Assembly: GCA_943328795.2 (NCBI GenBank)
Contig: CALQBK020000004.1
Location: 1 to 61,586, forward strand
Source of the DNA: Bifidobacterium breve
GTDB taxonomy: Bacteria > Myxococcota_A > UBA796 > SXON01
Direction: 5' to 3'
DNA length: 61,586 nt
A program made the translations under genes and the position numbers. The notes under the pieces were generated by a model. That model ran no database searches, had not been told where the DNA came from, and saw nothing but the letters and a program-made list of their open reading frames with translations. Below are positions 2,642-7,173 of this stretch, one piece after another. How positions within the stretch are numbered: the first letter of the stretch is position 1; every line of letters starts with the position of its first letter.

Positions 2642-3880
<1,239 letters not shown>

Positions 3881-3886
3881 CCGCAC

Positions 3887-3942
3887 TCAGTCCACGACTT
3901 TCGTCACATTCGCCCCACGATGTAACGAAAGTCGTGGACTGA
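3887..3942. repeat. long inverted repeat between oxidoreductase and AhpD operon
   Basis: Arms 3887-3904 and 3925-3942 are perfect reverse complements over 18 bp (core CAGTCCACGACTTTCGT). A partly matching inner stretch (CACAT/ATGTA) extends the pairing toward a loop of about 10 nt. There is no T-run, so it is not a textbook Rho-independent terminator. Its place 7 nt after the oxidoreductase stop and about 60 nt before the selenoprotein start would suit a terminator, an attenuator or a palindromic operator. Confidence 0.7.
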
Positions 3943-4000
3943 TCTGCGTTATATCGGCCGGTGCGGTTGCGGGGGCTGGGGGCGAAGGGTACGGGCGCGG

Positions 4001-4591
4001 ATGACTTGGATCCGCCCAGTCCACCCCTCCGATCCGGCCCACCCGCTGTACGTGCAGCGCCTGCGCGAGGCCCGGGAAGGCTACCCGCCGGAGTACGGCC
4101 CCCCGCGGCCCGGAAACCAGCTCCCCGCCGCGGTCGCCCGGGACAGCATCGTCGCGTCCCACGGGCAGCTGCCCGACGTGATGTTCCACATGTTCGCCGG
4201 GTTCCGGGCGATGCTCGCGCCCGACCTGCCGTTGAGCCGCCGGGAGCAGGAGCTCATCGCCGTCGTGGTCTCCCGGGAGAACGACTGCTTTTACTGACTG
4301 GAGTCCCACGCAGAGTTTCTGCGTCTCGTGACAGGAGATGACGGGTTCGTGGCCCAGGTGCGCGAGGACCCAAAAACCGCCGAGCTGACGCCGCGCGAGC
4401 GCGCGATCGTGGCGTTCGCCGAGCGGATGACGCGGGAGCCGTGCCAGCTCTCCCCGGCCGACCTGGACAGCCTGAGGGCGGTCGGGCTCGACGAACGAGG
4501 CGTGGTCCAAGTGACCGCGATCGCCGGGTTCTTCAACTATGTAAACCGGGTGGCCGACGCGCTCGGGGTGGGGCGGGACGCGGAGCCGTAG
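4001..4591 (+). CDS. AhpD-like peroxidase-related selenoprotein (CxxU)
   Basis: 196 aa if TGA 4295-4297 (codon 99) is read as selenocysteine. Both halves match the peroxidase-related AhpD/CMD family without a break. The N-terminal half ends LSRREQELIAVVVSREND-CFY. The C-terminal half continues with LESHAEFL, then a helical segment with LTPRERAIVAFAERMTR and GFFNYVNRVADALGV. The family signature E-x11-C-x2-C-x3-H is intact as E84, C96, U99, H103, with the TGA precisely at the second cysteine, the peroxide-reactive one in AhpD. A 7-bp hairpin follows (see 4298-4327). Predicted reaction: reduction of hydroperoxides or other electrophiles through a Cys-Sec redox pair. It is the first gene of an operon with 4652-4954 and 4951-5541. 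The alternative is a nonsense-mutated pseudogene, unlikely given the same arrangement in the third gene. Confidence 0.85.
4298..4327 (+). promoter_or_regulatory. putative bacterial SECIS hairpin 1
   Basis: Immediately after the TGA codon. The stem 4308-4314 (ACGCAGA) pairs perfectly with 4318-4324 (TCTGCGT) around the loop GTT. After a 4-nt 5' bulge the outer GAG 4301-4303 can pair with CTC 4325-4327. The first loop G lies 18 nt after the TGA (17 intervening bases). That spacing and an apical-loop G are what bacterial SelB-binding SECIS elements show. Confidence 0.7.
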
Positions 4592-4651: not shown

Positions 4652-4954
4652 ATGGCAGACCCAAATCACAAGAAGGCGGAGACCTTGAGGACCCGGGTGC
4701 TCCAGGGCCCCGGGCACGTGGCCCCGGCGGTCCGCCAGGCGGCCGCGGCCAACGTCGACGTCCCGCTGGCGTTTGCGTCTTACGTGGACACCATCCACGA
4801 GAAGCCCGCCGCCGTGACCGATGACGACGTCGAGGCGCTCAAGGCCTCGGGCTTCACGGAGGACGAGATCTTCGAGGTCACCGTCGCGGCTGCGACCGGG
4901 GCTGGCTTCCGCCGGCTCGACGCCGTGCTCGCTCTACTGGAGGACGAAGGATGA
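4652..4954 (+). CDS. small AhpD-like protein lacking the redox motif
   Basis: 100 aa. It resembles the C-terminal helical half of CMD/AhpD proteins (VTDDDVEALKASGFTEDEIF then VTVAAATGAGFRRLD) but has no cysteine at all, so it cannot run the CxxC chemistry. It sits between the two selenoprotein genes: 60 nt after the first, and its TGA overlaps the ATG of the second (4951-4954, ATGA). Likely role: a structural or regulatory partner in a hetero-oligomer with the Sec-containing subunits. The function is inferred only from family and context. Confidence 0.75.
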   Translation: MADPNHKKAETLRTRVLQGPGHVAPAVRQAAAANVDVPLAFASYVDTIHEKPAAVTDDDVEALKASGFTEDEIFEVTVAAATGAGFRRLDAVLALLEDEG

Positions 4955-5541
4955 GGCTCACTGTCACCGAGTCCGGGCACGCGTTGCCGAACCGGATGTT
5001 CCTGAAGATGCTCAAGTGGTCCACCGGCGCCGAGCCTGTCGACGTGCTGCGCACGTTGCACTACCGCACCGATTTCTGGGGCCGCCCGTACTCCACCCTG
5101 CTCCAGGACGTGATGCGTGGGCCGTCGGAGTGGTCGCCCGGCGAGCGCGAGCTCTTCGCGGCGTTCACCGCCCGGGTCGGCGACTGCGAGTTCTGAACGG
5201 GGGCCCACGGCGCGGTCGCGTCGTTCTACCTCGGAGATACGCTGGCGCAGGACGCGCTGCGCGACTGGCGGCCGGCGGACATCCCGCCGAAGCTGAAGGC
5301 GATGCTCGCGTTCTTGGAGCAGCTCTGTCGCAGCCCGGAGACGGTCGACAAAGAAGGCATCGCGACGCTCCGCGCGGCGGGCATCTCGACGGCCGCGATC
5401 CGGGAGGCCGTCTACGTCTGCGCGCTGTTCTCGACCATCACGCGCATCGCGGACGCGCTGGAGTGGGCGATCCCCCCGAACTTCGGCCAGTCGGTCGACG
5501 CGCTGACGAAGTTCGGGTACAAGCTGCCCCCGTTCCTCTGA
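4951..5541 (+). CDS. AhpD/carboxymuconolactone decarboxylase-family selenoprotein (CxxU)
   Basis: 196 aa with TGA 5194-5196 (codon 82) as selenocysteine. The N-terminal part contains MRGPSEWSPGERELFAAF and ends in GDCEF; after the TGA it resumes TGAHGAVASFYLGDTL, LRDWRPADIPPKLKAMLAFLE and IREAVYVCALFSTITRIADA, all normal for this family. The signature E-x11-C-x2-U-x3-H reads E67, C79, U82, H86. A hairpin with loop GGTC follows the TGA at the same distance as in the first gene. The start ATG overlaps the stop of the upstream small gene by 4 nt. Predicted thiol/selenol peroxidase-like activity in the cytoplasm; the substrate is unknown. A third family member in an operon with the same Sec site makes a random nonsense mutation improbable. 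Confidence 0.85.
5207..5224 (+). promoter_or_regulatory. putative bacterial SECIS hairpin 2
   Basis: The stem 5207-5213 (ACGGCGC) pairs with 5218-5224 (GCGTCGT), 7 bp with one G-U wobble, around the apical loop GGTC. The first loop G lies 18 nt after TGA 5194-5196, the same spacing as in the first selenoprotein gene. A GGU-containing loop matches the E. coli fdhF-type element. Confidence 0.7.
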
Positions 5542-5616: not shown

Positions 5617-7173
5617 ATGCTCCCCCAACTGTTGTCACTCGTAGCCTTCGTGGCGGCAGCTGAACCTGCGCCGCCCGTAGCAGAGCCCGCGCACGACGCG
5701 ACCACCGCCCCCGCGCCGGCCCTCGCCCCCGAGCAAGCGCCCGCAGCGGCTCCCGAGCCGCCGCCCCCGGCACCCCCACCCGCGCCTGCTGCGCCGCCCC
5801 CTGCTGCGCCGCCCGCCCCCGCGCCGCTCGTGGCCCCCCCGACGTTCACTTGGAACATCGCCTATCGTACGCGCCCTGAGCTGCGGTTGTCCCCGAGCTT
5901 CGAGGCCGAGCCCGCGCTCGACGAGGGCGACTCGCCAGACTTGGCGTTCGTTGGCAGCCGTGCGCGCGCGACGCTGGGGCTGGACACCGGGCACGTGCGC
6001 GTCGCCATGACCATGCAGGACGGGCGCCACTTCGGCTCGGAGGCCTCCAACACGGCGGATGAGGCCACGCTCGACCTGCACCAGGGCTACCTCGAGCTCC
6101 ACGACCTCGCGAAGGGGGCATTGAGCCTCCGGGTTGGGCGGTTCGAGCTCGGCTGGGGCTCGGAGCGGATGATCGGCCCCGCTCCGTGGTCGGACGTCGG
6201 CCGCAGCTTCGACGGGACGCGGCTCCAAGCGCGGCTCTCCAAGCGCTTCACCCTCGACGCCTTCGGGGCCTGGGTGCGCGAGCGCCGCACGATCAGCGTA
6301 CGTGACCAAGTCGGGAGCACGATCTACGCGGCGACCAACGGCGACGCCGTGGTCGGCACGTTCGCGGCGTGGAAGCCCGCCGAGAAGCACGAGCTGGACG
6401 CCTACGTGCTCGCGCGGTTCGACAACCCGACCACCACGCCCCGCTTGCTAGAGCGCCACCGCGAGATCGCCTCCCCGGGGGTGAGAGCGGTCGGCTCGCT
6501 CGGGGGGTTTGACTACAGCGCAGAGGGCGGGGTGCAGTTCGGCCGCGCCGACGGGATGTGCGAGGATCCGTGCGACATCCCCACCAGCGAAACCAACGAC
6601 CACTTCGCGTGGGCGTACGCGGCGAGCGCCCGCTACACGCTCGGCGTCCCCTGGAAGCCCTACCTCGGCGTCGCCTCGGACATGGCCAGCGGCGACGGGG
6701 ACCCCAACGACGGCGACTCGGAGGAGTTCGACAACTTCTTCCCGTCGAACCATGGCAAATACGGCGCGATGGACCTGATTGGCTGGCGAAACATGACCGA
6801 CGAGCACGCGTCCATCGGCGTGTCACCCGCCGCGGGCTGGGTGGTCTCGGCGGACGTGCACCTCCTCGGGTTGCAGCAACAGTACGGGATCTGGTCGGAC
6901 GCCTCGGGCACCGACATGTCCGACGGAGACTACGACCTGTACTACGCGAGCAGCCGGAACCTGGGCACAGAGGCCGACTTGGGCGTCAGTTGGCGCAAGC
7001 AAGGCAGCCCGCTGAAGGCGAGCGCGGGGGGCTCGCGGTTCTGGCCGGGCCCAGCGGCGGCCGAGCGGCGCGGCGCCAACCCGTCCTGGTGGGCGTTCGT
7101 CTCGCTCGAGGCCGAGCTCGGAGGCTCCACCGCCCAGTTGCCCCGATTGGCGCCCGACCCTATGTTGAAGTAG
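5617..7173 (+). CDS. alginate-export-like outer membrane beta-barrel protein
   Basis: 518 aa. It has a short N-terminal signal sequence (MLPQLLSLVAFVAAA), then about 60 residues of Pro/Ala-rich linker (residues 17-75). A long run of alternating amphipathic strands follows, beginning FTWNIAYRTRPELRL. The conserved segments RVGRFELGWGSERMIG, FDGTRLQAR, WKPYLGVASDMASGDGD and DLIGWRNM are those seen in AlgE/alginate-export-type porins. Predicted role: an outer membrane channel, substrate unknown. The Pro-rich linker may span the periplasm or peptidoglycan. It starts 76 nt after the selenoprotein operon and is followed 20 nt later by the copper monooxygenase gene. Confidence 0.75.
   Translation: MLPQLLSLVAFVAAAEPAPPVAEPAHDATTAPAPALAPEQAPAAAPEPPPPAPPPAPAAPPPAAPPAPAPLVAPPTFTWNIAYRTRPELRLSPSFEAEPALDEGDSPDLAFVGSRARATLGLDTGHVRVAMTMQDGRHFGSEASNTADEATLDLHQGYLELHDLAKGALSLRVGRFELGWGSERMIGPAPWSDVGRSFDGTRLQARLSKRFTLDAFGAWVRERRTISVRDQVGSTIYAATNGDAVVGTFAAWKPAEKHELDAYVLARFDNPTTTPRLLERHREIASPGVRAVGSLGGFDYSAEGGVQFGRADGMCEDPCDIPTSETNDHFAWAYAASARYTLGVPWKPYLGVASDMASGDGDPNDGDSEEFDNFFPSNHGKYGAMDLIGWRNMTDEHASIGVSPAAGWVVSADVHLLGLQQQYGIWSDASGTDMSDGDYDLYYASSRNLGTEADLGVSWRKQGSPLKASAGGSRFWPGPAAAERRGANPSWWAFVSLEAELGGSTAQLPRLAPDPMLK

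Follow-up and report, generated by a model that had tools for sequence, protein, structure and literature searches.

A TGA codon within an AhpD-like reading frame

The locus at positions 4,001 to 4,591 raises the question of whether a TGA in the middle of an AhpD-like reading frame ends the protein or encodes selenocysteine (Sec) and, if the latter, what the resulting protein would do. It lies in a window of 61,586 nucleotides, that is, the whole stretch of DNA that was analysed, from a genome (G000) of 4.79 Mb assembled into 298 contigs and estimated to be 86% complete. The frame, here called gene 1, starts with an ATG at 4001 and ends with a TAG at 4589-4591, and codon 99 is its sole internal TGA. 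The features concerned are as follows:

4001..4591, + strand: gene 1, predicted AhpD-like (TIGR01926) selenoprotein of 196 aa with Sec99 (from the frame, profile matches and relatives)
4295..4297, + strand: putative Sec-UGA codon of gene 1, at the second position of the CxxC motif, here CFYU (from the homologue alignment and the TGA column)

A preliminary description of this DNA had taken the frame to be continuous on both sides of the TGA, and profile searches bore this out. The read-through product matched the Pfam family CMD with 38.1 bits (cut-off 23), whereas neither of the two halves obtained by splitting the gene at the TGA had a Pfam match. Among the NCBIfam models, TIGR01926 (peroxidase-related enzyme) scored 118.2 bits against gene 1, above its cut-off of 81.8, while NF041238 reached 67.4 bits for a cut-off of 175 over about 357 aa. 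The classical AhpD model, TIGR00777, was absent from the match list at E 0.001. Eight sequences of solved structures matched gene 1, and Cys stood opposite codon 99 in the three alignments printed (2oyo, 6k40 and 2pfx). The product carries the catalytic pattern Glu-x11-Cys-x2-Cys(Sec)-x3-His, with E84, C96, U99 and H103 exactly where they had first been placed. These residues, together with Y98, were invariant among nine aligned TGA members of the gene-1 type (9 of the 10 members scoring above the TIGR01926 cut-off, that of G054 having been left out).

Predicted fold and likely reaction of the gene-1 protein

An AlphaFold2 model of gene 1, based on the nine aligned members, reached a pLDDT of 80 and a pTM of 0.80. 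Foldseek placed peroxidase-related AhpD structures at the top ranks (6k40, 2oyo, 2prr, 2pfx and 3c1l), and these Cys-type proteins were the best matches of gene 1 in sequence as well as in fold. The debrominase Bmp8 (6ohj and 6ohi), a CMD-fold enzyme using thiols, was also matched. A further close counterpart is PA0269 of Pseudomonas aeruginosa (2o4d and 2ijc), which has the same relay residues at the same spacing as gene 1, but a Cys (Cys51) instead of the Sec and a shorter chain. In that protein, Glu36, Cys48, Tyr50, Cys51 and His55 constitute a proposed proton relay, and weak H2O2 reduction was measured (PMC3141380).

By homology, the set Glu84-Cys96-Tyr98-Sec99-His103 would serve Sec99 in the manner of the proton relay of AhpD-like proteins. 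Sec99 would take the place of Cys51 of PA0269 and, within the CxxU redox motif, act as the partner of Cys96, the two forming a selenenylsulfide during turnover. The protein would most likely reduce a hydroperoxide or, alternatively, carry electrons as a thiol-disulfide adaptor. The match to Bmp8 would also suit a selenoprotein with a reaction other than that of a peroxidase, for instance a thiol-dependent dehalogenase or another reaction of the CMD fold. We consider this unlikely, given that the peroxidase-related AhpD proteins are the best matches in both fold and sequence and that gene 1 shares its residue set with PA0269, for which the peroxidase activity, albeit weak, was measured (PMC3141380).

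Conservation of the TGA and selection on both sides of it

Matches to gene 1 were found in 17 of the 58 related genomes searched, and its nearest relatives, in G017 (78% identity), G014 (73%) and G034 (55%), have the TGA at the same codon. Across the order, TIGR01926 had matches in 35 of 63 genomes. Ten of these were above the cut-off, and each of the ten genes contains one TGA, located at the U of CFYU. The remaining 25 matching genomes had only weaker matches, below the cut-off. Among the below-cut-off genes inspected, four had CxxC (L029/L051, L030/L047, L037 and L057), a pattern search retrieved no CxxC-type motif in the loci L031, L049, L054 and L056, and the G036 and G029 genes contain a TGA and are of the gene-2 type described below. 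The TGA of gene 1 and the hairpin that follows it persist in relatives whose identity is as low as about 31-37%. Downstream of the TGA, dN was lower than dS in all six pairs formed by four orthologues (0.17 against 0.79 between the window and G017), much as it was upstream, which points to purifying selection on gene 1 continuing past the TGA. When plasmids were searched, a single partial match was obtained; it covers 32% of the query, downstream of the TGA, and belongs to a gene with the annotation peroxidase-related enzyme.

If the TGA were a true stop, gene 1 would be a pseudogene or a pair of separate short genes, one encoding 98 aa and the other, starting at a GTG, 87 aa. Two such frames do exist mechanically, since a listing of ORFs with table 11 divides gene 1 into 4001-4297 and 4328-4591; nevertheless, with no Pfam family for either half, the same codon occupied by TGA in all ten above-cut-off genes, and dN below dS beyond it, this explanation is very improbable. 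In the same listing, both selenoprotein genes of the locus end at their TGA; because plain table-11 ORF calls stop there, selenoprotein genes of this kind are easily under-annotated.

A hairpin downstream of the TGA of gene 1

A candidate bacterial SECIS element (bSECIS) follows the TGA:

4308..4324, + strand: putative bSECIS hairpin of gene 1, with a 7-bp stem and the loop GUU (from the stem search, covariation and recoding)

A spacer of 10 nt (4298-4307) leads to the stem (4308-4314 paired with 4318-4324), and the loop GUU (4315-4317) begins after 17 nt, a layout that the preliminary description had given exactly, with its 7-bp hairpin 10 nt past the TGA and an apical loop at 17 nt. The loop agrees in sequence and distance with the published bSECIS rule, which asks for a G in the first two loop positions and a loop 16-37 nt from the UGA (PMC13188914). 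In all 13 TGA genes compared, ten of the gene-1 type and three of the gene-2 type, the best hairpin had its apical loop 17 nt past the UGA and a G as the first loop nucleotide.

Covariation was assessed in the ten gene-1-type sequences against shuffles that leave the relatedness of the sequences in place. Base pairing was observed in 95% of the cells, compared with 86% in the shuffles, and seven cells had changed on both sides, compared with 1.9 (0 of 500 shuffles as high). Sliding the stem partners against each other abolished the signal. Two other measures did not stand out: two-sided changes affected 3 pairs, a number reached in 34 of 500 shuffles, and there were 4 further pair types, compared with 4.4 in the shuffles, 456 of the 500 being as high. 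Synonymous recodings of gene 1 reached a 7-bp stem in 0.14% of cases at offset 17 (P 0.0014) and in 4% at any offset from 12 to 25 (P 0.04). Four distant Cys homologues had 2-3 bp at offset 17 and 3-6 bp at any offset. The hairpin appeared in the predicted fold of the stretch following the TGA, although this stretch as a whole was not unusually stable: 4290-4345 had a z of -0.54, and 56 of 200 shuffles were at least as stable. Given this stability and the recoding probability of 0.04 at any offset, the significance of the hairpin lies in its conservation and not in its stability. The alignment of the ten TGA genes indicates that the hairpin is conserved and co-varying, and gene 1 provides a clear example of covariation in a putative bSECIS.

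Selenocysteine machinery and other selenium genes

A search of the genome for the Sec genes found selA, selB, selD and tRNA-Sec, all on contigs other than that of the window, in an assembly that is fragmented. SelB scored 287.7 bits, above the cut-off, in a frame that runs to the end of contig C68. SelA, with 403 bits, was also above the cut-off and is split, one part lying at an end of contig C194 and the other at an end of C129. The selD gene was likewise above the cut-off, and tRNA-Sec scored 66.9 bits for a gathering score of 47, ARAGORN calling it a tRNA-SeC with anticodon tca. Above-cut-off selA was present in all ten genomes with a TGA gene and in 52 of the 63 genomes of the order overall, so its presence in the former discriminates little.

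Other selenium-related genes were noted along the way. At 2904-3797 of contig C258 (L075), selD shares its frame with an N-terminal part that has CGGC instead of Sec. We read this part as NADH-dehydrogenase-like, which fits the Ndh-SelD fusions with CxxC that have been described (PMC2398784). A gene of the SelW-like CxxU family at 16295-16495 of contig C10 (L123) has a TGA at the Sec position and represents a third selenoprotein candidate of the genome. No formate dehydrogenase alpha chain with a TGA was detected: none of the nine matches had a stop, and none was above the cut-off.

A sequencing or assembly error that turned a TGC or TGT codon into TGA might be suspected in an assembly of 298 contigs, but the same TGA and hairpin occur in the separate assemblies G017 and G014, and the chance of such an error is negligible. 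Genome-wide reassignment of TGA to another residue, for example Trp, is just as improbable, since gene 2 and its partner gene both end in TGA, the genome encodes tRNA-Sec, SelA, SelB and SelD, and the homologues have Cys rather than Trp in the TGA column.

The reading we favour, with a probability of about 96%, is that gene 1 encodes an AhpD-like selenoprotein: SelB and tRNA-Sec would decode the UGA at 4295 as Sec, the hairpin at 4308-4324 would act as the bSECIS, and Sec99 and Cys96 would form the CxxU redox pair of a probable hydroperoxide reductase or thiol-disulfide adaptor. The Sec genes, the conserved TGA and the co-varying hairpin lend support to the preliminary description, which had proposed a likely selenoprotein with a TGA at the catalytic Cys. 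It had nonetheless rated the novelty of the gene too high, AhpD-like CxxU selenoproteins being a described family, and it had overlooked the second selenoprotein gene nearby.

Relationship of gene 1 to known selenoproteins

Published accounts of AhpD-like CxxU selenoproteins go back to 2005, the Sargasso Sea study having reported 27 sequences (COG2128), and a 2026 review places these proteins under TIGR01926, with MCB9421940.1 as an example. As proteins of this sort are already described, gene 1 belongs to a known kind, with which it shares the family model (COG2128/TIGR01926) and the position of Sec in CxxU; it differs in lying directly before a second AhpD-fold selenoprotein gene. The CFYU motif is shared with NF041238 (AhpD_rel_CFYUT, an alkylhydroperoxidase-related (seleno)protein corresponding to hypothetical protein 1 of the Sargasso Sea), whose C-terminal half aligns with gene 1 (NF041238 alignment built from 7 of the 12 loci fetched). 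However, gene 1 scores far below the cut-off of that model and does not have its N-terminal domain, which contains a CxxC of its own. Of the 282 phylum genomes, 36 had an NF041238 match above the cut-off, and every such match listed contains one TGA.

A probable second AhpD-fold selenoprotein gene

The search with gene 1 also returned the stretch 5134-5460 of the window, with a TGA of its own, which proved to be part of a second gene:

4951..5541, + strand: gene 2, predicted second AhpD-fold selenoprotein of 196 aa with Sec82 (CEFU) and a TGA stop (from the homology search, profiles and phylum relatives)
5194..5196, + strand: putative Sec-UGA codon of gene 2 (from the TGA in relatives and the Cys, TGT, in the orthologue of G177)
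5207..5224, + strand: putative bSECIS hairpin of gene 2, stem ACGGCGC/GCGUCGU, loop GGUC (from conservation and covariation)

Comparison of the gene-2 and gene-1 profiles gave an alignment of 151 columns with an E of 5e-27. Against TIGR01926, gene 2 scored 81.6 bits, just below the cut-off of 81.8, and its relatives in G066, G144 and G177 scored 66-72; NF041238 gave 28.6 bits for a cut-off of 175. Matches to gene 2 were present in 57 of the 282 genomes of the phylum. There are 11 close members, that of the window included, ten of which have TGA and one, in G177, TGT.

A 6-7-bp hairpin with the loop GGUC at offset 17 was found in 11 Sec-type genes (the ten close members and the more distant one of G029), G219 and G029 having an equal or longer stem elsewhere as well. 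The gene of G177, the sole close Cys orthologue of gene 2, has only 2 bp at the hairpin site and is a natural control without the hairpin. Three cells of the stem had changed on both sides, compared with 0.4 in the shuffles (0 of 500 as high), while 170 of 500 shuffles were as high in further pair types. On its own, the recoding test was not significant (P 0.16 both in the window and in G036, 0.22 in G029), so the support for the hairpin of gene 2 comes from its conservation. Gene 2 appears to be a second selenoprotein related to gene 1, probably working with a small protein whose gene immediately precedes it.

A candidate partner gene preceding gene 2

The partner lies between the two selenoprotein genes:

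4652..4954, + strand: 100-aa protein without Cys that resembles the C-terminal half of the TIGR01926 domain, candidate partner of gene 2 (from profile comparison and synteny)

The end of the partner overlaps the start of gene 2 by 4 nt (ATGA), and it precedes gene 2 in all 11 close members across the phylum. In the ten relatives, the two genes overlap or lie at most 18 nt apart, with the 4-nt overlap in four of them. None of the 11 partners has a CxxC, and five have no Cys at all. At six more distant AhpD-type loci (L090-L095), the partner was not found, the sole exception being a short matching segment within the AhpD gene at L093. In G029, a partner-related sequence (29% identity over 70 aa) forms the C-terminal part of the gene-2 protein. 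A model of this fusion (pLDDT 76) matched the same peroxidase-related structures as gene 1 and, weakly (E 0.03), human Sestrin2, a protein of two AhpD-like halves.

Searches with the partner gave no Pfam match, and NCBIfam offered only TIGR01926, whose C-terminal part was matched below threshold. A partner profile built from 9 of the 11 sequences (those of G259 and G123 were left out and two N-termini trimmed) was aligned by hhalign with 38 columns of the gene-2 profile, in its C-terminal half, at a probability of 79%. The N-terminal domain of NF041238 was also considered as a relative and rejected, its hhalign probability of 20% being lower than the 79% obtained with the C-terminal half of gene 2.

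No library model covered the gene-2/partner pair above its cut-off, and we found no description of it in the open-access literature searched. Published relatives include the CMD-like CxxU selenoproteins (PF02627) and, as an instance of adjacent selenoprotein genes with an AhpD member, the Prx-like/AhpD-like neighbours of the GOS data; at this locus, by contrast, both selenoproteins have the AhpD fold and a gene for a CxxC-less half-domain lies between them. Among the loci fetched, gene 1, partner and gene 2 occur in a row in this genome only. The conserved pair, its tight spacing and the related fusion of G029 suggest that the two proteins may bind each other and function jointly. The odds are roughly even that they form an undescribed two-part selenoenzyme, in which a Sec-bearing AhpD half would bind a CxxC-less half-domain, conserved across the phylum and in one case fused into a single chain, the model of which bears a weak resemblance to Sestrin with its two halves; next to gene 1, it would make up a small AhpD-type selenium cluster. 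A partner without CxxC provides a testable lead on the assembly of an AhpD-type selenoenzyme.

Genomic surroundings

Neighbourhoods were compared through an all-against-all search of the ORFs around 12 gene-2 loci and six gene-1 loci. The recurring ORFs were the selenoprotein genes, the partner, shadow frames and a low-complexity-looking group from two loci (G123 and G246); apart from this last group, no neighbour of gene 2 beyond the partner was conserved around the 12 gene-2 loci. Within the window, Rfam gave no match at gathering scores, and no tRNA was detected by ARAGORN. In G017 and G014 only, gene 1 has a repeat-rich, Asp/Cys-rich gene beside it on the opposite strand (L107 6565-8700 and L108 6641-7894). 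The window has an unrelated neighbour in that place, so no pathway can be read from the context.

The upstream flank (2642-3880) encodes an Oxidored_FMN protein (old yellow enzyme), and the downstream flank (5617-7173) encodes an Alginate_exp protein (PF13372); neither recurs beside the selenoprotein genes in the relatives compared. An inverted repeat (3871-3958) separates the gene for the old yellow enzyme-like protein from gene 1. Its arm, AGTCCACGACTTTCGTNAC, has 11 copies in the genome at ≤2 mismatches, compared with 0 for a reversed control, several of them on contigs C207 and C85.
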